In this document: positions 6,384 through 62,704 of the stretch, piece after piece
Layout: each line of letters opens with the position of its first letter
Numbering within the stretch: position 1 is the stretch's first letter
Assembly: GCA_015067175.1 (NCBI GenBank)
Contig: SVMX01000005.1
Location: 62,001-126,000, forward strand
DNA length: 64,000 nucleotides
Source of the DNA: Oscillospiraceae bacterium
GTDB lineage: Bacteria > Bacillota > Clostridia > Oscillospirales > Ruminococcaceae
Direction of reading: 5' to 3'
Program-made: the position numbers and the translations under genes
Notes under the pieces: model-generated
Told to the model about the DNA's origin: nothing
Database searches by the model: none
Seen by the model: the letters and a program-made list of their open reading frames with translations, nothing else

Positions 6384-7127
6384 ATGAGCAAAAACACTAA
6401 ATCAATGGCCCCGATGATATCCACTATCATCGTAGCTGTTCTCGCTATCGGCGTTGTTATTGCGGCGCTGATACTTATATCAGGCGATAAGGGCGGCGAA
6501 TCGTCCGTGCCCGACAGCAGCGTTTCCGAGCAGCGCTTTCAGCCTACTCAGGAGCTTCTTGACGAATGCACCTACGCTGCACACGACCTTGTGGCAAACA
6601 ACTATCAGATAGTCCGTCTGTTTGTGACAGAGGGTCTGCCGTATGAGCCCGAGCCTTACGGAAACGCTCCCGAGGACGGTCTGTATACCGTAAGCAGCAA
6701 GGATTATACTACGCTTGAAGAGATTGAGAATCTTGTCGAGGAGACTTTTGTGGCTGATGAAGCTCAGCGTATCCTTACTGATATCGACGGAAACAAGCTG
6801 GCGGTGTATCAGACTCGCGAGAAGCTTGTAAAGGTGGAGCAGCCTGCGGATTCTACCGCCGAGGCTGAGGGCGACGCAAGCATTCAGTATACTACGGAAT
6901 ATGTTCTCGGAATAAGCGCAAAGTTTACTCCTGCAAAGGACTACAAAAAGGATTGGTCGAGCTGCCGTATAGCGCTCGTGCCTAAGTCCGAGACCGAATG
7001 CAAGCTTACTGTTTACCTTAACGGCGTTGACGAAAACACCGCTACAGAGGCTGACGCAGACTCCGTGCTTGATATGTTCATGACAAAGAGCGGCGACGAA
7101 TGGCGTCTTACCGAGTTCGTTTATTGA
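6384..7127 (+). CDS. Membrane-anchored protein of unknown function, first gene of the ATP synthase cluster
   Basis: 247 aa; not recognised. One membrane segment near the N-terminus (about 10-32) without a lipobox cysteine, then an outward-facing domain of about 210 residues, acidic at its start (SSVPDSS linker). The body has alternating strands and charged turns and two YTV/LTVYLNG-like stretches, and resembles no enzyme motif I know. It sits under the cluster promoter, and its stop is one base before the next ATG, so its product is made together with the ATP synthase genes. A role tied to the membrane or to the synthase is possible but unproven. Confidence 0.75.
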   Translation: MSKNTKSMAPMISTIIVAVLAIGVVIAALILISGDKGGESSVPDSSVSEQRFQPTQELLDECTYAAHDLVANNYQIVRLFVTEGLPYEPEPYGNAPEDGLYTVSSKDYTTLEEIENLVEETFVADEAQRILTDIDGNKLAVYQTREKLVKVEQPADSTAEAEGDASIQYTTEYVLGISAKFTPAKDYKKDWSSCRIALVPKSETECKLTVYLNGVDENTATEADADSVLDMFMTKSGDEWRLTEFVY

Positions 7128-7128
7128 T

Positions 7129-7419
7129 ATGCCGAAAAAACACAGCAATCTTTCCGCTTATGCGATAGCAAGCCAATTCGCGTATGCTATCTTGTCCCCG
7201 CTTATCGTGTTTATAGTAGGCGGATATTACGCGTCAAAGCACTTTGAATGGCCTGATTGGGCTATGGGGCTGTGCGTGGGGCTCGGAATATTCTTTATGC
7301 TGTGCGGAGGCATCTCGCAGCTTACGAAGATAATGCGCATATACGGCAAGGATAACGAAAAAGCGCCGAAAAGCTACAACAGCCGCGAGGATAACGACTA
7401 TTACGACAACTATAAATGA
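7129..7419 (+). CDS. AtpZ/AtpI-family small membrane protein
   Basis: 96 aa with two membrane segments (about 10-31 and 43-63), joined by a short loop with a glycine pair, then a polar charged tail. This is the pattern of AtpZ-type proteins that precede Fo genes in many Gram-positive operons, where they are linked to magnesium or to assembly of the c ring. The ATG overlaps the upstream stop region (TGATATG), so translation is likely coupled. Function assigned by position and topology more than by motif. Confidence 0.7.
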   Translation: MPKKHSNLSAYAIASQFAYAILSPLIVFIVGGYYASKHFEWPDWAMGLCVGLGIFFMLCGGISQLTKIMRIYGKDNEKAPKSYNSREDNDYYDNYK

Positions 7420-7423
7420 CGAT

Positions 7424-7816
7424 ATGGCAGCAAAGAAACGAGATATAATAACACAGGAGATGCTTTCGCTGTTTCCTTACTTCATGGTGATAAACGGCGT
7501 GTATTTCGCGGTGATATTGGTGCTGTTTTTCGCGCTCGGCTTCGATTACACGTTGATAACAGGCGCGGTTTACGGCAATATTATATGTGTGCTGAATTTT
7601 TATTTTCTGGGTCTTTCCGCGCAAAAGGCAGTGAGAAAGTCCCAAAAGGCGGCGCAGACCTATATGAACGCGATGTATTGCCTGAGATATCTTGGGCTGT
7701 TCGCTGCGATGTCTGCGGCGGCGCTGCTTCCGTTTATAAACCTTATTGCCGCAGTGCTCCCGCTGCTGTTTACAAGGCTTGCGATAACGTTTAGGGCGTT
7801 CAGGGAGAAAGAATGA
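7424..7816 (+). CDS. atpI: ATP synthase subunit I (AtpI-like)
   Basis: 130 aa with four predicted membrane segments (about 15-37, 40-60, 85-102, 105-122). The GAVYGNIICVLNFYFLG segment is characteristic of ATP synthase I, a membrane chaperone that helps assemble the c ring. It starts four bases after the previous stop. A small hairpin (CCCGCTTTCGGG, 7827-7838 region) and a strong AAAGGAGG ribosome site separate it from atpB. Confidence 0.8.
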   Translation: MAAKKRDIITQEMLSLFPYFMVINGVYFAVILVLFFALGFDYTLITGAVYGNIICVLNFYFLGLSAQKAVRKSQKAAQTYMNAMYCLRYLGLFAAMSAAALLPFINLIAAVLPLLFTRLAITFRAFREKE

Positions 7817-7908
7817 TGCTTTCCCGCTTTCGGGCGGAAAAATAAAGGTTTCAATGAAGCTTACCCGACGGGGCGCGGCGCTCCGCCAAGAAAAAGGAGG
7901 ACTATATT

Positions 7909-8643
7909 ATGTCAACCGCATTGATGATGCTTTCCGAAGCAGCTCCCGCTGCTGCCGAAAAGAGCTTTGAGATCAGCGGCCCTATGGTCGTTGCAAGCTG
8001 GGAGATGTTCGGAATCACATGGAATCTCACAGAATCCGTTATCGTCCAGTGGATAGTTATGCTGGTGATACTTGCTGTGTGCCTTATCCTCGGCACAGGC
8101 TTGAAGGCAGTTCCCACAACTCGCCGTCAGGCTTTGGCAGAGATGCTTATTTCCGCCCTCAGAGGAATGGTAAATGACGGTATGGGTGCAAAATACAAAG
8201 CGTATATTCCGTATATTGGTATACTTATGGTATACGTTATGTTCAACAGCCTTATCAGCTTGTTCGGACTGCGCGCGCCGATGGCAGACGTTTCTGTTAC
8301 CGCGTCGCTTGCGATGATCACGTTCTTTATGACGCAGTACAACCGTGCAAAGACAGGTAAGCTCAAGGGCTACTTAAAGGCGTTTGTTGATCCGCTGCCC
8401 TTCATGCTCCCCTTTAACATCATCGGCGAGTTTGCAAACCCCGTTTCTATGGCGCTCCGTCTTTTCGGTAACCTCGTTGCAGGTATGGTTATCGGCGGAC
8501 TTATCTACTTCGCTCTCGGCAACTTCGCGATACTCATTCCCGCGGTTGCTTCGCTTTACTTCGATATATTCTCGGCGGTTATCCAGTCGTATATCTTTGT
8601 AATGCTTACGATGTCTTACATCTCCAGTGCGGAGTGCGAGTAA
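7909..8643 (+). CDS. atpB: ATP synthase Fo subunit a
   Basis: 244 aa, multi-pass membrane subunit that forms the ion path next to the c ring. The essential arginine is R184 in MALRLFGNLVAGMVIGG, and the last helix ends with the usual short polar tail. Length is normal for Gram-positive subunit a. It begins after an AAAAAGGAGG ribosome site and leads the atpBEFHAGDC order. Confidence 0.96.
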   Translation: MSTALMMLSEAAPAAAEKSFEISGPMVVASWEMFGITWNLTESVIVQWIVMLVILAVCLILGTGLKAVPTTRRQALAEMLISALRGMVNDGMGAKYKAYIPYIGILMVYVMFNSLISLFGLRAPMADVSVTASLAMITFFMTQYNRAKTGKLKGYLKAFVDPLPFMLPFNIIGEFANPVSMALRLFGNLVAGMVIGGLIYFALGNFAILIPAVASLYFDIFSAVIQSYIFVMLTMSYISSAECE

Positions 8644-8681
8644 TTAAATTAGGATATGTTCCCCAAGCGGGAATTATATAA

Positions 8682-8999
<318 letters not shown>

Positions 9000-9042
9000 G
9001 CCGAACCGATACGATAAAGCATAAAAGGAGGAATTGGGCATA

Positions 9043-9588
9043 ATGCTGACTTTCATCAGCGAGGCGGCAGCAGGCACGGCTGAACAGACAAAGCTCGCGC
9101 TTGTTTCGATCGACCTCGGAACGATCGTGTTTACGCTTATAAACACGCTCATTATCTTCCTTATCTTCAGGATATTCCTGTACAAGCCGGTATGCAAGAT
9201 ACTTGACCAGCGCAAGGAGCTTGCTGCGAAGGAAATCGCCGACGCACAGGCTGCAAAGGAAGCTGCGGAAAAGACCGAGCAGGAGTATCTCGCTAAGCTT
9301 GCCGACGCAAAGGCTGAGGCTGCGGAGATCATGAAGCAGGCTACAGCAAGAGCACAGGCTCGCGAGGAAGAGATCATTTCGGAGGCTAACAAGAATGCTT
9401 CCGAGATCAGAGCAAAGGCAGAAGAAGCTATTGAGCGCGACAAAAAGCGTGCAATGAACGAGATAAAGGACGAGATTTCCGATATCGTTATCCTTGCCGC
9501 ATCTAAGGTCGTAGAAAAGGAGATTTCGGCAAAGGACAACGAGGCTCTTATCTCTGAGTTTCTTGTAAATGTCGGCGCCGAGCAGTAA
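9043..9588 (+). CDS. atpF: ATP synthase subunit b
   Basis: 181 aa. A membrane helix at about 24-45 is followed by a long charged, alanine-rich coiled coil (about 50-170), the outer stalk that links Fo to F1. I place the start at the ATG at 9043 because the AAGGAGG at 9025-9031 is 11 nt away; the in-frame TTG at 9034 would be only two bases from it. The protein ends with the usual short helix that meets subunit delta. Confidence 0.93.
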   Translation: MLTFISEAAAGTAEQTKLALVSIDLGTIVFTLINTLIIFLIFRIFLYKPVCKILDQRKELAAKEIADAQAAKEAAEKTEQEYLAKLADAKAEAAEIMKQATARAQAREEEIISEANKNASEIRAKAEEAIERDKKRAMNEIKDEISDIVILAASKVVEKEISAKDNEALISEFLVNVGAEQ

Positions 9589-9626
9589 GGCGCGCCGAAA
9601 ATTCTTCGATCATACGGGAGAATAAC

Positions 9627-10178
9627 ATGAACGACAAGGCAGAAAAGGTCTATGGTGAGGCTTTTTTCGAGCTGTGTCTTGAAGAGTGTCCCGATAAGCT
9701 TCAGAGCATCACGGAGGAGCTTACCGCGCTTGGCGGCATCTTCCGCGAAAATCCCGAGCTTGTTAAGATAATGGGCACACCCACGATCTCAGCAGAGGAA
9801 AAGCTTTCGCTTACCAAAGAAATTATCGAAAACGGAAACGTTTGTGAGCTTTGCGGCAACCTGCTGTGCGTTCTTGCGGAGCGCGGCAGATTCAATTGCT
9901 TTGACGGTATCGTGAAGCAGTTCAGAGCAAAGTATAACGAGCATTTCAATATTGCCGATATCACTGTTACAACAAGCGCTCCCCTTACAGAGGAGCTGCG
10001 CAGCAAGATCATCGCAAGAATGTCCGAGGTTACGGGCAAAAAGGTCAACCTGCGCGAAAAGCTTGACCCCGATATTATCGGCGGTATCGTGATAGATCAC
10101 GGCAGCACTCGCTATGACGGAAGCGTCAAGTCGAGAATAAGCGCGATAAAGAAGGAGCTCGGCTCTGTTATTGCGTAA
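9627..10178 (+). CDS. atpH: ATP synthase subunit delta
   Basis: 183 aa. All-helical N-terminal domain (about 5-105) and the C-terminal signature REKLDPDIIGGIVIDHGSTRYDGSVKSRI near 140-170, which packs on subunit b. It caps the F1 head and joins it to the outer stalk. The order atpF-atpH-atpA with short gaps is canonical. Confidence 0.94.
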   Translation: MNDKAEKVYGEAFFELCLEECPDKLQSITEELTALGGIFRENPELVKIMGTPTISAEEKLSLTKEIIENGNVCELCGNLLCVLAERGRFNCFDGIVKQFRAKYNEHFNIADITVTTSAPLTEELRSKIIARMSEVTGKKVNLREKLDPDIIGGIVIDHGSTRYDGSVKSRISAIKKELGSVIA

Positions 10179-10206
10179 AAATAAACTATAAGAAAGGGAA
10201 GTAGTA

Positions 10207-11715
10207 ATGGATTTACGCCCCGATGAAATAACGGGCCTTATCAAGGACCGTATTAAAAACTACAACGCTAAGATCCAGCTCGGCGACATCGGTACGGTCG
10301 TTACCGTCGGTGACGGTATCGTGCGTATCCACGGTCTGGAAAAGTGCATGATCAACGAGCTTCTTGAGTTTGAGAACGGCGTTCAGTGCATGGCGCTCAA
10401 CCTTGAGCAGGACTTTGTCGGCGCTGTTATGCTTGGCTCTGACGCGGGCATAAAGGAAGGCGACACAGTAAAGCGCACAGGCAGCATCGTATCCGTTCCT
10501 GTCGGCGAGGAGCTGCTGGGACGAGTTGTAAACTCCCTCGGTCAGCCTATCGACGGCAAGGGTCCGATCCTTGCAAAGGAGACCCGCCCTATCGAGAAGA
10601 TCGCTTCCGGTATCATCACAAGAGAGCCTGTAAACGTACCTCTTCAGACAGGTATCAAGGCTATCGACAGCATGATCCCGATAGGCAGAGGTCAGCGTGA
10701 GCTGATCATCGGCGACAGACAGACAGGTAAGACTGCTATCGCTATCGACACTATCATCAACCAGCACGACAAAGATGTTATCTGCATCTATGTTGCTATA
10801 GGTCAGAAAAACTCTACCGTTGCAGGTGTTGTTGAAACGCTTCGCGCAAACAATGCTCTGGATTACACCATCGTTGTTTCCGCGACCGCTTCCGAGCTTG
10901 CACCGCTTCAGTATATCGCTCCCTATTCGGGCTGCACCATGGGTGAGTACTTCATGGACAAGGGCAAGGACGTTCTCGTTGTATACGATGACCTGTCCAA
11001 GCATGCCGTTGCCTACAGAACACTCTCTCTGCTGCTTAAGAGACCCCCGGGACGTGAGGCGTTCCCCGGCGACGTATTCTATCTGCATTCAAGACTTCTT
11101 GAGCGTGCTGCTCGTCTTAATGCAAATTACGGCGGCGGCTCTCTGACTGCGCTTCCTATCATTGAAACACAGGCAGGCGACGTTTCCGCGTATATCCCCA
11201 CAAACGTTATTTCCATCACTGACGGTCAGATCTACCTTGAGACCGAGCTGTTCAACGCAGGTGTTCGCCCTGCCGTAAACCCCGGTATCTCGGTATCCCG
11301 TGTAGGCGGTAACGCGCAGATCAAGGCAATGAAGAAGGTTGCAGGTACTCTGAAGCTTGACTACTCTCAGTACAGAGAGCTTCAGTCCTTTGCACAGTTC
11401 GGCTCTGACCTCGATCAGGATACAAAGAACCGTCTTGCAAAGGGTGAGCGTATCGTTGAGGTATTAAAGCAGGATCAGAACTCCCCCCTCGCTGTTGAGG
11501 AGCAGGTAGTTATCATCTATGCCGTAATCAACAACTATCTGGCATCTATCGAGATCGAGAAGATCAAGCAGTACCAGAAGGACCTCATCGACCACATCAA
11601 GGCTAACAAGCCCGAGATACTCACAAGCATCAAGACCGAGAAGGCTATGACGCCCGAAAACGAGGCTGCGGTAAAGGAAGTTCTCACAAGCTTCGCCGCT
11701 TCCTATGCGGGCTAA
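10207..11715 (+). CDS. atpA: ATP synthase F1 subunit alpha
   Basis: 502 aa. Non-catalytic nucleotide-binding subunit of the F1 head. The Walker A motif GDRQTGKT is at 169-176, and the family signature [13 protein letters not shown] lies near 354-366. Length and domain order (beta barrel, nucleotide domain, helical C-terminus) are standard. It is followed, unusually, by a 42-codon gene before atpG. Confidence 0.97.
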
Positions 11716-11734
11716 GCACGAAAGGAGTAGCAAT

Positions 11735-11863
11735 ATGAAACAGGCTGCTTTTGTACTCAGCATAATCGCAACCACCATCAGCGTTGCTGCTGCTCTTGCA
11801 GTTGCATGGCTGTACCTTGAAAAGAAGGTAAAGTATATCACAACGGAAGACAGTATCCAGTGA
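11735..11863 (+). CDS. Small single-pass membrane protein between atpA and atpG
   Basis: 42 aa, not recognised. It has its own AAAGGAG ribosome site (11721-11727) seven bases before the ATG and a TGA stop. Residues about 4-26 are a hydrophobic, alanine-rich membrane helix; the C-terminal tail (EKKVKYITTEDSIQ) is polar and would face the cytoplasm by the positive-inside rule. It fills the usual atpA-atpG junction. Being translated within the operon, it may be an accessory or assembly subunit of the synthase, but no known subunit of this size sits here. Coding status is supported by ribosome site, hydrophobic design and lack of overlap. Confidence 0.7.
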   Translation: MKQAAFVLSIIATTISVAAALAVAWLYLEKKVKYITTEDSIQ

Positions 11864-57875: not shown

Positions 57876-57952
57876 AGTAACATGTGGGCGTTTTACATAT
57901 AAGCTTTTGTAGGCGCTCTGATTTAAATCTTATTGAAAAGGAAATGAAATTT

Positions 57953-58606
57953 ATGATAAAAACATCTGCTTCCCTGCTTGCTTGTAATCTTGCGCAGATC
58001 GCGCTGGAGATAAGCCGTTGCAAAAAGTCGGGCGTTGACTGGATACACGTTGACGTTATGGACGGAGTTTTTGTTGACCAGATCACATACGGCAGCCCTC
58101 TGCTGAAATCCGTGAGAGCTTCTACCGATATGTTCCTCGATGTGCACCTCATGGTAGAAGACCCCACAAAGCAGATAAAGCTTTTCGCTGAGGCGGGTGC
58201 CGATCTTATCACTATCCACGCTGAGAGCTTCTGCAATATCTCCGAGCTGTTAAAGCAGATCAGAAAGCTTGGCAAAAAGGCTGCGCTTGCAGTTAAGCCC
58301 ATGACTCCCATCGAAACAGTTTTCCCATATCTTGAGCTGTGCGATATGGTGCTTGTCATGACAGTAGAGCCCGGTTACGGCGGACAGGCTTTCATTCCCG
58401 AAACAGTGGAAAAGATCGCAAAGCTGCGCAAAACTGCCGATCAGCTCGGTCTTAAAGATCTTGATATCCAGGTAGACGGCGGCATAAACGAAAAGACTGC
58501 TGATTTAGTTAAAAAGGCAGGCGCTAATGTTCTCGTATCCGGAACAACATTGTTCAAGGCGGAGAACATGAAGCAGGTATGTGACGAGCTTAAAAAGCCC
58601 GTTTAA
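57953..58606 (+). CDS. rpe: Ribulose-phosphate 3-epimerase
   Basis: 217 aa. Interconverts ribulose 5-phosphate and xylulose 5-phosphate. Motifs: SASLLACNLAQIA at the N-terminus, WIHVDVMDGVFV with metal-binding His and Asp, VHLMVEDP with the second His, MTVEPGYGGQAFI, and VDGGINEKTA with the catalytic aspartate. I prefer the ATG at 57953 because the AAAAGGA site is ten bases away; the ATG at 57944 would be too close. It overlaps the next gene end by four bases (convergent). Confidence 0.95.
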   Translation: MIKTSASLLACNLAQIALEISRCKKSGVDWIHVDVMDGVFVDQITYGSPLLKSVRASTDMFLDVHLMVEDPTKQIKLFAEAGADLITIHAESFCNISELLKQIRKLGKKAALAVKPMTPIETVFPYLELCDMVLVMTVEPGYGGQAFIPETVEKIAKLRKTADQLGLKDLDIQVDGGINEKTADLVKKAGANVLVSGTTLFKAENMKQVCDELKKPV

Positions 58607-59127
58607 TCGAAAAAATTGCCGAGCGCTTCGCTGCTGTCCGAGATTATCTCGGTTAGGTATTCTCTCGTCTGTGCAGCGAATAGCGGAGATATCTCGCAGT
58701 ACTCTCCAAATTCAGAGCATATCCTTTCGGTGTCCTCTGATGGGTCGGAAAAAATAATTCTGTAAAGACTTGGGTCACTGCCACAGAACAGGCTGTATTT
58801 CTCGTCGTTATCCGACAGGGCTTTTATCAGCGGAAGCAGGTTTTCCGTGCCCTTTAGCTCGCAGGAATAGTATTGCACATGGTGCTGAGGTTTTTCGCTT
58901 TCCAGTGCGGAAACAAAAAACACACAGCTTCCGTCTGATCTTAAAAACGCCTCGACCAGCAGTCTTCCGTCAGGGAGGTTTATACCCTGCTCTTCTGTGA
59001 GCCTGTCAATGACGGAACGGATAAATCTGCGCATCTCGCAGGGCTTTCCGTCAGGCGGCACTGCGGCTGCTTCGATACTGTCGAGGGTTATCTTATATGT
59101 TGTTTCTCCGAGAGGCTCGGCTTTCAT
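58603..59127 (-). CDS. MecA-like adaptor protein
   Basis: 174 aa from the ATG after GGAGGTGCGAT. The first strand-helix unit (KITLDSIEAAAVPPDGKPCEMRRFIRSVIDRLTEEQGINLPDGRLLVEAFLR pattern, read in pieces) and the acidic C-terminal half with FGEYCEISPLFAA resemble MecA/NegR adaptors that bring substrates to the ClpC protease. The C-terminal half, which binds ClpC in MecA, is recognisable but divergent, so the call is moderate. Confidence 0.65.
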   Translation of the reverse strand: MKAEPLGETTYKITLDSIEAAAVPPDGKPCEMRRFIRSVIDRLTEEQGINLPDGRLLVEAFLRSDGSCVFFVSALESEKPQHHVQYYSCELKGTENLLPLIKALSDNDEKYSLFCGSDPSLYRIIFSDPSEDTERICSEFGEYCEISPLFAAQTREYLTEIISDSSEALGNFFD

Positions 59128-59163
59128 ATCGCACCTCCTATACAAAAGAAAGGATCATTACTG

Positions 59164-60273
59164 ATGAGATCTGTTATTGCACGCGATCCGTGCAAGATTT
59201 ATTTTGAAAGATTTATATTTATGGCGGCGCTGCTTATTCCCGCATGGTTTCTTAACGGCGCGCGCGTATTTATGGTCAGCGCTGTCAGCGTTGGCGTGTG
59301 CATTGCCGCGGACTGGGTCTGCTGCAAGGTGCGCAAGATACCGTACGACTTCAAGGATTACAGCGTTATTTTCTGGGGTCTTGCTGTATCGCTCGTGATG
59401 CCGACAAGTATTCCTTATGTTCTGTCGGCTTTTTCTGCGATAATATGCGTTGTTATCGGCAAGCATATCTTCGGCGGCAAGGAGAACGTAGTGTTTTCAC
59501 CTCCCGCTATTGCAGCGGCATTTTTAATTATATGCTATCCCTCTGAAATGTTATACTTCCCTAAGGTAGGCGAAATAATGCCTGTTTTCGGCGAATACGG
59601 CGGCACGCTCGTGCGCGACCTCGACAACACACTGAAGCTCGGCAACGTCCCCTCATATTCCATGCTTGATATCCTCATGGGAAGAGCGCCCGGTGCTATC
59701 GGCGCGGTCAGCATACTTGTTATTGCTGTCTGCGCAATCTGCATGATTATACGCCACAGCACCAGTATATGCGCGATGCTCTCCTGCCTTGGTACAGTAT
59801 CGCTGCTCGCATTTTTGTATCCGAGAATAGACGTTACCCCTGCAGAGTCGGTGTTTTATGAGCTTACCAGCGGATATCTGCTGTTTGGCGTGGTTTTCCT
59901 TGCCGCTGAGCCGTATATACTTCCGAAGCGCCGCGCAGCAAGAATAATCTACGGTATAGTTCTTGGCTACACTACCATGATGTTCAGATATTTCGGTCAG
60001 ACCGAGGGCTGCTTCCTGTTTGCGCTGCTTATCACCAACGCGCTGACCCCCGGCTTTGATACTATCATTGATAATCTGCTGTACTGGAAGCGCTCTTATA
60101 TAAGCTCCTTTGAAAGCAGCAAAAACGACGCAATACGCGGCAATATCAAGCTGACTGACACACAGGAGATACAGCTTCCCGAGAAGTATCGCTACAACAC
60201 CCCGCCTATTGACGGCAAGGTGAAAAAGCACAGAAGAAGCAAAAAGCACAGGGGAGGTGACAGCGATGAGTGA
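59164..60273 (+). CDS. RnfD-like membrane subunit
   Basis: 369 aa, about eight to ten membrane segments. ENVVFSPPAIAAAF, GRAPGAIGAVSIL and YLLFGVVFLAAEP recall RnfD/NqrB subunits of the ferredoxin- or NADH-linked ion pumps. I do not see the (S/T)GAT-type motif that holds the covalent FMN: the stretch where it should be reads LGNVPSYSMLDIL. The usual GE after PGxxG is GA here. The C-terminus carries a basic lysine/arginine/histidine-rich tail. It heads a three-gene run with RnfE- and RnfA-like genes, and overlaps the second. Confidence 0.78.
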   Translation: MRSVIARDPCKIYFERFIFMAALLIPAWFLNGARVFMVSAVSVGVCIAADWVCCKVRKIPYDFKDYSVIFWGLAVSLVMPTSIPYVLSAFSAIICVVIGKHIFGGKENVVFSPPAIAAAFLIICYPSEMLYFPKVGEIMPVFGEYGGTLVRDLDNTLKLGNVPSYSMLDILMGRAPGAIGAVSILVIAVCAICMIIRHSTSICAMLSCLGTVSLLAFLYPRIDVTPAESVFYELTSGYLLFGVVFLAAEPYILPKRRAARIIYGIVLGYTTMMFRYFGQTEGCFLFALLITNALTPGFDTIIDNLLYWKRSYISSFESSKNDAIRGNIKLTDTQEIQLPEKYRYNTPPIDGKVKKHRRSKKHRGGDSDE

Positions 60274-60907
60274 TAAAAAGACCTACCCGATATGCTTTGA
60301 CGGCTTGTTCAGACAAAATATAGTGCTGACAAGCGGTCTTGTCACTGCCCCGATAATCGTTGCAGCGACCACTGCGCAGCGCGCCGCTCTGCTGTCGCTG
60401 ACATTTTTTATGATATCATACTGTACCATTCTTATCGGCAGGATAATCCCCAGAAAGCTGGTATATACAGTTCGCATTATACTATATGCGCTGATAGCTT
60501 CGCTGGTGTTTATCCCGACAGCGGTTCTTGCGCAGACGCTTTTCCCCGATATCATGACATCGGCTATGCTGTATATCGAGATACTGGTGGTAAATTCGCT
60601 GGTGCTTGCAAAGACCGAAAGCCGCTTTTACCTTATCCCTTACTCCTCAATGGCGATAGACTCTCTCGTGTATATCGCAGGCTACGCTCTGGCGGCGTTT
60701 GCTGTGGGTATCGTAAGAGAGCTGCTGGCTTACGGCACTGTTTTTGACCTGCATATATGCCATGCGATCATGCCTGCGGCGAAATCGCCGTTCTTCGGCT
60801 TTATCCTTGTAGGACTGTATGCCGCGATATGCCGCGCTTACTATAACAGAAAGCGCAGCAGAGACGCAGCACTGTCCGAGCTTGTGCGGAAAGGAGCTGA
60901 TGACTGA
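60266..60907 (+). CDS. RnfE-like membrane subunit lacking cluster cysteines
   Basis: 213 aa from the ATG eight bases after GGAGGT; six membrane segments. FRQNIVLTSGLVTAPIIVAAT corresponds to the GLCPLLAVT region of RnfE, and ILVVNSLVLAKTE to the VTNCIVVGRAE region; VGIVRELLAYGTVFD matches the later signature. The two cysteines that bind the shared [2Fe-2S] cluster in RnfE/NqrD are replaced by Val26 and Ser111. It starts eight bases before the end of the RnfD-like gene. Confidence 0.8.
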   Translation: MSDKKTYPICFDGLFRQNIVLTSGLVTAPIIVAATTAQRAALLSLTFFMISYCTILIGRIIPRKLVYTVRIILYALIASLVFIPTAVLAQTLFPDIMTSAMLYIEILVVNSLVLAKTESRFYLIPYSSMAIDSLVYIAGYALAAFAVGIVRELLAYGTVFDLHICHAIMPAAKSPFFGFILVGLYAAICRAYYNRKRSRDAALSELVRKGADD

Positions 60908-61500
60908 TGGCTGTTCTTTCTGCAATAATTTCCGCTGCGATGCTGTCGATATTCGTTCAAAACGCTATTTTTGAGCGCGCATTCGGCTCAAATGTTGCAA
61001 TATACGCATCGCGCAGAGAATCCCATATTATCGGTTTTTCGCTCGGTATCACCGCTATGACTACAGCGGCAAGCGTTGCGACATATTTCCTTGACGGTAT
61101 TATCCTCCCTATGGAGAACGGCTGGCTTTTTATGCCGCTTATCTATGTCGGGGTAATAAGCGTTCTGTATATAATCGCGCTTCTTGTAATGTGGCGGTTC
61201 ATGCCAAAGCTGTTTGTCAAAATAAGAAAGTATGCGCACCTTGCGGTGTTCAACTGCACGGTCATCGGTGCGCTGTTCCTAAATTCGGGCTACGGCGGCG
61301 ACCTTTTATCGTATATAGGCTACGGAATCGGCACGGGTATTGGATTTTTCCTTGCGAGCCTTATGCTCAGCATCGCCCGTGAAAAGCTCGATTCCGACAA
61401 AATTCCCAAGGCTTTCCGCGGATATCCCATAATGCTTATTTATATCGGTGTGGTTTCTCTTGCTTTCTATGCACTGGTGGGATATACGGTTGATTTCTGA
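60907..61500 (+). CDS. RnfA-like membrane subunit with one cluster cysteine
   Basis: 197 aa, six membrane segments. FVQNAIFERAFGSNVAIYASR corresponds to the VNNFVLxxFLGxCPF region of RnfA, but Asn29 stands where the first cluster cysteine should be. The second is kept (Cys117 in AVFNCTVIGALFLN). The late FRGYPIMLIYIGVVSLAFYAL segment matches RnfA well. Its ATG overlaps the previous stop by one base (TGATG). No rnfB, rnfC or rnfG gene is adjacent. Confidence 0.8.
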   Translation: MAVLSAIISAAMLSIFVQNAIFERAFGSNVAIYASRRESHIIGFSLGITAMTTAASVATYFLDGIILPMENGWLFMPLIYVGVISVLYIIALLVMWRFMPKLFVKIRKYAHLAVFNCTVIGALFLNSGYGGDLLSYIGYGIGTGIGFFLASLMLSIAREKLDSDKIPKAFRGYPIMLIYIGVVSLAFYALVGYTVDF

Positions 61501-61540: not shown

Positions 61541-62704
61541 ATGAAAAGTAAGAAAATTAAGATAAAGCACCGAAAATATAACTTATATAATCGTAAGAAA
61601 AGCAAGGGCAAACAGGCGCTGGCGATAATACTTACGATAGTTATTGCGGCGGCGCTGTGCGTGCTGGGCTTCGGACTTGGCAGACCGCTTATGGAATATT
61701 TCAACGGAAATAAGCAGCAGACCACCTCGCAAACGTCCGAGTCCACTTCGGGAAGCACATCGGATACATCTTCACAATCTACCGCTGAATCAACAGACGA
61801 AACTTCTGAGCCTGCTCCCGATGTTGTAGAAAATACAAAGGTGCACTATATCAACAGCGCTGCATTAAAGAGCGCAGCTACGCTTGACAGAGCGCTTGCG
61901 GCGGCAAAGAGCAAGGGCTGCACTACTGTTGTGGTAACGCTGAGAGAAAGCGGCGGCACATTCCTTTACAAGACCGCGATAGAGGGCGTAAAGGATAATG
62001 AGGAGCTGACAAATGCGCTTACTGCCAAGGAGATATTCGACGCTGTAGACGGCGCAGGAATGAATGCTTATGCGCGTATCTGCACGCTGAGAGATCATGT
62101 TTCGGGCGGCTACATCGCGGGCATAAAATATATTACCGCCGATGGATACGGCTGGCTTGACGCGGCACCTAATAACGGCGGCAAGCCATGGCTTTCGCCG
62201 TTTGAGAGCAAAACGTTGAAATATCTCGGCGAGATAACAGCGGAGCTTTCATCGGCAGGCTTTGAAAAGATAATTCTGACAGATACTATGTATCCTGCAT
62301 TCCACCCAGCCGATTACGACAAGTATCTCAGTCATATTTCTAAGCTGAACGACAGCAATCACAGGGCGGCTGTGCTGTGGCGCGTCGTATCATCTTGTCA
62401 GTCTGCGGCTAAGTCTAACGGCGCTGATGTTATGGTCGAGATGAATATGGAAGATATCACTTCTGCCGAAAAGCTTGGCACAAGCGCTGAAATGGCAAAT
62501 GACCACACAAAGCTCAGCACAGCGGAGCTTCTGATAGTATTTTCGTCACAGGGTAAAGATCCGTATACTGCCGCAAAGAGCTTTATCGGTCAGATAAAAG
62601 CTACTTACGGCAATATGAAGTATAGCGTTGTTTTGTCGAAAGGTGAAACAGAGCGCGCTGAAAAGGCGTTCCTCGAGGAAAATATAACAGTGTTTTATGA
62701 ATAA
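61541..62704 (+). CDS. Membrane-anchored DUF4015-like putative glycoside hydrolase
   Basis: 387 aa. A lysine/arginine-rich cytoplasmic head (about 1-25), one membrane helix (about 26-48), a Ser/Thr-rich linker (about 58-92), then a TIM-barrel-like domain (about 95-387): TVVVTLRESGGTFLYKT, GMNAYARICTLRDHV, GYGWLDAAPNNGGKPWLSPF and GFEKIILTDTMYP follow the order of DUF4015 proteins, distant kin of GH13-like barrels. No confirmed activity is known for the family. It lies 41 bp after the RnfA-like gene, in the same direction. Confidence 0.75.
   Translation: MKSKKIKIKHRKYNLYNRKKSKGKQALAIILTIVIAAALCVLGFGLGRPLMEYFNGNKQQTTSQTSESTSGSTSDTSSQSTAESTDETSEPAPDVVENTKVHYINSAALKSAATLDRALAAAKSKGCTTVVVTLRESGGTFLYKTAIEGVKDNEELTNALTAKEIFDAVDGAGMNAYARICTLRDHVSGGYIAGIKYITADGYGWLDAAPNNGGKPWLSPFESKTLKYLGEITAELSSAGFEKIILTDTMYPAFHPADYDKYLSHISKLNDSNHRAAVLWRVVSSCQSAAKSNGADVMVEMNMEDITSAEKLGTSAEMANDHTKLSTAELLIVFSSQGKDPYTAAKSFIGQIKATYGNMKYSVVLSKGETERAEKAFLEENITVFYE

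Follow-up and report, generated by a model that had tools for sequence, protein, structure and literature searches.

A trio of RnfD-, RnfE-, and RnfA-like genes between rpe and a DUF4015 gene

The window (the whole 64-kb stretch of Oscillospiraceae DNA analyzed here) carries three genes on the forward strand that encode RnfD-, RnfE-, and RnfA-like membrane proteins, here termed D′, E′, and A′, with E′ overlapping D′ by 8 nt and A′ overlapping E′ by 1 nt. The features of the locus are as follows:

57884..58606, + strand: rpe, ribulose-phosphate 3-epimerase (TIGR01163, E = 1.4e-73), the usual upstream neighbor and marker of the site
58603..59145, − strand: MecA-like gene (PF05389, 22.0 bits, just below the 22.5 cut-off)
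59164..60273, + strand: rnfD-like gene D′, 369 aa (PF03116, E = 5.6e-52)
60266..60907, + strand: rnfE-like gene E′, 213 aa from the ATG at 60266 (PF02508, E = 1.5e-19)
60907..61500, + strand: rnfA-like gene A′, 197 aa (PF02508, E = 4e-25)
61541..62704, + strand: DUF4015-domain gene (PF13200, E = 1.3e-10) with an N-terminal hydrophobic stretch, the usual downstream neighbor

Open reading frames and Pfam matches confirmed the preliminary description of overlapping RnfD/E/A-like genes at 59164–61500. The E′ frame also opens at GTG 60257 (216 aa), and an AG-rich stretch precedes the ATG at 60266. PF03116 is the sole Pfam match above cut-off in D′, which has no fused PF00175 NAD domain. Against the NCBIfam models rnfD, rnfE, and rnfA, the three proteins scored 104, 44, and 84 bits, far below the cut-offs of 207, 213, and 229. 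Using the genome's own canonical RnfA/B/C/D/E/G as phmmer queries (E ≤ 0.1) against 726 frames of the window, we recovered D′, E′, and A′ as the only matches, with no rnfB, rnfC, or rnfG in the 64 kb, and Pfam and NCBIfam profile scans of six window proteins returned no NqrF. A scan for promoters and terminators at the locus gave no usable signal.

The MecA-like gene, which lies between rpe and D′ on the opposite strand and has similar counterparts in 24 loci of our first set, is part of the site and stands outside the proposed complex. The DUF4015 gene is found in the same stretch in 124 of the 135 loci holding A′, and it is by position only that it suggests itself as a partner of the trio. 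An obligate partnership was rejected, as DUF4015 stood beside rpe without the trio in 12 of 18 loci that had been selected for having no listed E′ match.

Loss of cofactor ligands in D′, E′, and A′

We compared the cofactor sites over 133 to 135 homologous loci, using Acetobacterium woodii numbering for the Rnf sites. In E′, Cys25 was present in 0/133 loci and Cys108 in 0/133, compared with 36/36 and 35/36 distinct canonical loci. In A′, Cys25 was present in 0/135 (canonical 11/12) and Cys113 in 98/135 (canonical 12/12), the RnfA controls being limited to 12 distinct loci, among them L223, which is without Cys25. Thr occupied the FMN column of D′ in 5/133 loci and that of RnfD in 40/40 distinct canonical loci. 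Three loci occurred twice in the canonical control set (L201/L223, L197/L224, and L200/L225), and distinct counts are given throughout. The same Cys and Thr losses recur across the clade and so are not due to chance. The counts over 133 to 135 loci are not independent, because the 80 named loci, chosen as the best of 221 relatives, are for the most part close to the window, and because some genomes may be in both collections (L187 and L189 are 98% identical); a 65-tip set is the fairer sample. These relatives' loci come mostly from MAGs, plus Merdimmobilis hominis An559 (L187), the one strain record among the named relatives.

The window itself keeps one of the four RnfA/RnfE [2Fe-2S] cysteines. 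Both were said to be missing from E′, at Val26 and Ser111; both are indeed absent and Ser111 is right, but the residue aligned with Cys25 is Ala28 (numbered from the ATG) rather than Val26. In A′, the first site is Asn29 and the second retains Cys117, just as described from the sequence at the outset. The flavinylated Thr column of D′ holds an Asp, in a loop that aligns with gaps so that the exact residue is uncertain, and the motif [ST][GAS]A[ST] was not found in the flavinylation region, which agrees with the earlier statement that no FMN motif is visible there. As the same pattern detects just 21 of 41 canonical RnfD proteins, we relied on the column count instead. The riboflavin pocket of the window D′ is altered as well, with N123/D249 replaced by Ser/Glu; N123 is kept in 55 of 111 loci that lack the RnfC-like gene described below (C-less loci).

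Realignment did not restore the cysteines or the FMN site. Misalignment over the cysteines was rejected as an explanation, any Cys within three residues of the two E′ sites being found in only 1/133 and 4/133 loci and of the first A′ site in 0/135. Outside these 133, E′ does not always lack both cysteines: two of five further derived loci (L298 and L299, family f5) keep RnfE Cys25. For the purposes of this analysis, we defined a derived module (C′DEA or DEA) as the site rpe-(C′)-D′-E′-A′-DUF4015 with loss of at least three of the four cluster cysteines, and the window falls within this definition.

A canonical Rnf operon elsewhere in the genome and an RnfC-like subunit in relatives

Elsewhere in the window genome (2.14 Mb, 84% complete), contig C11 carries a full rnfCDGEAB operon in which the four Cys and the flavin Thr are intact. 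The preliminary description had rnfB, rnfC, and rnfG absent nearby and had proposed a search for a complete operon elsewhere; the absence extends to the whole 64 kb, but it needs the correction that the same genome encodes all three on C11, together with that operon's own D, E, and A. The genome's single FMN_bind match lies in the C11 operon, and no NqrC/RnfG-type subunit stands beside the trio. An RnfC-like relative used as query returned the canonical RnfC and one short match, with no second full-length RnfC in the window genome, though at 84% completeness a gene located elsewhere could be missing from the assembly.

In 22 loci (19 from the window's family and three from family f5), an RnfC-like gene, C′, lies directly before D′. 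All eight Cys of the two 4Fe-4S clusters are present in 22/22 C′ proteins, and the Gly-rich FMN/NADH loop GLGGAGFPT is altered in 22/22; the D′ proteins of these loci keep riboflavin-pocket N123 in 22/22 and D249 in 18/22. No RnfG or RnfB was labeled in the derived loci. In the 65-tip tree, one clade (UFBoot 88) unites 43 C-less loci, with one further case standing apart, so two changes suffice to account for the distribution of C′. Some frames in these relatives are unusually long, namely a 646-aa D′ (L227, 5948–7888, +) and C′ frames of 559 and 570 aa (L229, 8990–10669, −; L230, 8934–10646, −), which may reflect extensions or start-site errors.

Distribution and selection

At least 112 of the 148 genomes sampled from the window's family carry D′, a figure made up of 110 matches of at least 288 bits plus G136 and G068, which fall below the gap in scores and were assigned by an adjoining E′ or an absent canonical copy. 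No match to canonical RnfD was found in 13 of the 112, among which G068, G087, and G102 are at least 94% complete. Between the window and six close relatives (L110–L113, L115, and L116), dN/dS was 0.09–0.18 for D′, 0.09–0.21 for E′, and 0.05–0.08 for A′, near the values for rpe in the same six comparisons; dS exceeded 1, so that these figures are rough. In four more distant comparisons, dN/dS for E′ reached up to 0.33 and several dS values were infinite. Judged by sequence, the trio is kept by selection in many gut Oscillospiraceae, mostly beside a normal Rnf pump.

Across 293 genomes of the class, a set with few genomes from the window's order, matches to the E′ profile above 150 bits occurred only in the window's family (f1) and f5. 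A scan of 197 genomes of the order gave six matches of 152 to 156 bits outside f1 and f5, which on inspection were five canonical operons and one derived trio; the inspection took in only a minority of the matches below 152 bits. This derived trio, L292 (family f91), has a shortened E′. At present sampling, the known occurrences of the module fall in three families of a single order. Two small genomes (L278 and L279; 0.9 and 0.7 Mb, 97% complete) carry a lone D′ and one distant PF02508 protein elsewhere, with no DUF4015 match. In L256 (7364–8659, −), D′ stands alone between rpe and DUF4015, E′ and A′ not being found there, and is a probable relic.

Origin of the derived loci

The derived genes stand between rpe and the DUF4015 gene. 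For comparison, we examined 28 canonical rnf loci from elsewhere in the order, outside the window's family; two of these belong to f5. Six genes were labeled in 25; RnfG was not detected in two (L310 and L312), and L314 is cut by a contig end. The four Cys are present in 28/28, and the RnfD Thr in 27/27 loci with RnfD in view. Upstream of rnfC, rpe is found in 3/28 canonical loci, all from family f77. DUF4015, a putative glycosyl hydrolase domain, is encoded by the next labeled gene after rnfB in 11/28 loci from seven families, 19 to 612 bases away (L291, L295, L302–L304, L309, L311, L314, and L319–L321), and is possibly an unrecognized neighbor of Rnf.

Phylogenetic analysis placed the derived loci in a clade of their own (UFBoot 100), as the tree proposed in the preliminary description was meant to reveal, with a sister group consisting of exactly the three f77 operons at the rpe site (UFBoot 92). 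Derived and f77 loci together split from the family's own canonical operons (UFBoot 96); the latter fall together with operons from other families within the class. Neighborhood and sequence tree thus agree on the origin. An approximately unbiased (AU) test rejected a duplication inside the window's family alone, uniting the derived clade with the family's canonical operons (p = 0.0105); an ancient duplication shared with the canonical operons of f1 and f5 was not rejected (p = 0.171). The sister grouping had a support of 80.6 in the quick tree of the AU test, and with the long stem of the derived clade, long-branch effects are possible. In a smaller tree, L223 was sister to the derived clade (82) and moved away when more taxa were included; L197/L224 was counted twice in the 65-tip and smaller trees, and not in the larger one. 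Descent of the trio from Rnf is not in doubt, and an in-place origin of the derived sets from an Rnf operon is probable.

The L223 locus (6387–11850, −) has the complete order rnfCDGEAB, with RnfE Cys108 and RnfA Cys25 both replaced by Gly, so that two of the four [2Fe-2S] ligands are lost; its genome holds four Rnf-Nqr-type matches. On the evidence of their residues, L298, L299, and L223 are surviving intermediates.

Conservation of the ion-path residues

In A. woodii, the RnfE R67-E115 pair lies on a proposed Na+ path; growth on H2 and CO2 was abolished by R67A and impaired or abolished by E115Q and E115K, while E115A was wild-type-like (available text of PMC11889175). The window E′ keeps both residues. 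Among the C-less tips of the 65-tip set, R67 is kept in 41/44 and E115 in 41/44; among the C′-bearing tips, R67 is kept in 15/21 and E115 in 4/21. At RnfA E88, which completes the charge network as its third partner, 35/44 C-less tips have Leu. The Leu at E88 and the retention of E115 in just 4/21 C′-bearing tips indicate that ion handling is not uniformly conserved, which argues against a single ion function. A new His occupies the RnfA Pro107 position in 33/44 C-less tips (residue 111 in the window A′), near the former cluster loop.

Comparison with known systems

The trio resembles the Rnf complex (RnfABCDGE; A. woodii, Clostridium tetanomorphum) in its homologous D, E, and A proteins, the order D-E-A, the fold, scaffold residues, and the RnfE R67-E115 pair; homology and fold are supported by Pfam, the E′ profile, and the predicted models of A′ and D′. 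Unlike Rnf, the trio has no G, no B, and, in the window, no C; E′ is devoid of [2Fe-2S] ligands, A′ has a single one, the covalent FMN site is missing, and the riboflavin pocket is changed in the window. Four features therefore place it outside Rnf: rnfC/G/B in the operon, the four Cys, the flavinylated Thr, and the NCBIfam scores.

Na+-NQR (NqrABCDEF) has the same membrane folds and has been proposed to derive from a duplicated rnf operon in which rnfB was lost and RnfC was rebuilt as the cofactor-free NqrA (available text of PMC4014512). NQR, however, keeps flavins and Fe-S centers and gained NqrF, whereas the trio has no visible electron entry and no membrane cofactor ligands. The two-subunit Nqr/Rnf-like flavinylation systems likewise contain an RnfD-like subunit without the flavinylated Thr, which has a fused NAD-binding domain and a flavinylated RnfG/NqrC-like partner (available parts of PMC8238504 and PMC11334425); in contrast, the trio keeps A and E, its D′ has no NAD domain, and there is no FMN_bind partner nearby. 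Foldseek comparison of the D′ model identified the fold of Amt/Rh ammonium and UT urea channels at no more than 11% identity, within Foldseek's own top 1000 chains, where other folds are possible as well. RnfD itself shares the Amt/urea fold, and the likeness is thus no evidence of channel function. We found no description of the module in the literature searched, with subscription papers and most preprints outside its coverage, nor in the available text of PMC8238504, PMC12174285, PMC11889175, PMC10579323, PMC11334425, PMC12700454, PMC10215811, PMC11456536, or PMC4014512.

Discussion

The trio is almost certainly a conserved module without the known Rnf cofactors, and on balance we favor, by a little, the reading that an ancestral Rnf operon was rebuilt in place into a redox-free module. 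The site between rpe and DUF4015 is occupied by a complete, Cys-intact rnfCDGEAB in another family of the order and by C′D′E′A′ or D′E′A′ in the window's family and one more. The derived sets would descend from such an operon, a step that is supported and stops short of proof: RnfG and RnfB, which carry electrons to and from the membrane part, would have gone in all derived loci, the FMN/NADH loop would have disappeared from C′, and the window's clade would have shed the C′ gene altogether. A second, differently branching Rnf operon (on C11 here) would do the redox work. By sequence, D′, E′, and A′ keep the fold and the scaffold residues, including R67-E115, without ligands for [2Fe-2S] or covalent FMN and, in the window, without the riboflavin pocket.

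What remained could move a cation or small solute independently of redox chemistry, as a transporter or gated channel in which either D′ would probably form the pore or A′/E′ would act as an alternating-access gate; without electron carriers, we infer that alternating access or a pore is the simplest use of the fold. The preliminary description had already suggested a module that kept the fold, lost electron transfer, and perhaps became a transporter or channel; the kept fold and the loss of cofactor ligands held up, and transport is what we would infer from them. A transport function is possible, falling a little short of probable. Only tentatively do we put forward the full sequence of events, in which a redox pump lost its carriers stepwise at its original site and became a redox-free transporter or channel, with an Amt/urea-like pore in D′ and a gate in A′/E′, while a second Rnf lineage couples energy; the trio would then be a second Rnf derivative besides NQR, maintained throughout a large family of gut bacteria, with relatives still showing the canonical and intermediate stages.

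Other readings were considered. The module could be a reduced redox device, in which electrons take a short path through the two C′ 4Fe-4S clusters and D′ riboflavin of C′-bearing relatives, serving either sensing or a quinone-like substrate, and of which the window version is a further decayed member. The invariant cluster cysteines of C′ and the well-kept riboflavin pocket beside it (N123 22/22, D249 18/22) speak for this, but no entry or exit site is visible, the FMN/NADH loop is altered throughout, no RnfG or RnfB is labeled, and the window has neither C′ nor the N123/D249 pair, so that we regard it as rather unlikely. It is improbable that the trio serves as a scaffold that holds or regulates an extracytoplasmic DUF4015 enzyme acting on wall or surface sugars: the frequent co-occurrence at A′ loci (124/135) and the position after rnfB in 11/28 canonical loci fit, yet DUF4015 stands beside rpe without the trio in 12 of the 18 picked loci, and the reduced genomes G068 and G087 keep D′ with no DUF4015 match found.

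We consider it very improbable that D′E′A′ is an alternative membrane core that swaps with RnfD/E/A and uses RnfB/C/G of the other operon. These subunits are available on C11, R148 (44/44) and E149 (41/44) of E′ are kept in C-less tips, and the window A′ keeps R154. In A. woodii, RnfA R154 and E158 are described as contacts of the RnfB cluster (available text of PMC11889175), but they are mostly changed in C-less loci, R154 being kept in 7/102 (among the six commonest residues listed), although E158 varies in canonical RnfA too. Moreover, canonical RnfD has no match in 13 of the genomes with D′ (completeness 94% or higher in three), and the known route for electrons is interrupted when the [2Fe-2S] ligands and covalent FMN are missing. 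Finally, the lone D′ of L256, the shortened E′ of L292, stops inside some E′ and D′ matches of the genome scans, and loss of the trio in at least 12 loci might point to a decaying relic or an annotation artefact. Open frames, low dN/dS against six close relatives, occurrence in at least 112 of 148 genomes, and a confident D′ model contradict this, and we rejected it, as exceedingly improbable, on the low dN/dS and wide spread.

If the in-place rebuilding into a redox-free module is correct, it would add to the proposed origin of NQR a second example of an rnf operon rebuilt after losing its electron-input subunit. In this natural series the cofactors are dropped while the membrane fold and, within the C-less clade, the ion pair of RnfE are retained, and so it may help to ask which parts move ions without electrons; it bears on how electron flow is coupled to ion movement in Rnf and NQR. 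In Oscillospiraceae, annotation of RnfD, RnfE, and RnfA alone is not proof of an Rnf pump, as 13 of 148 genomes carry D′ with no match to canonical RnfD.
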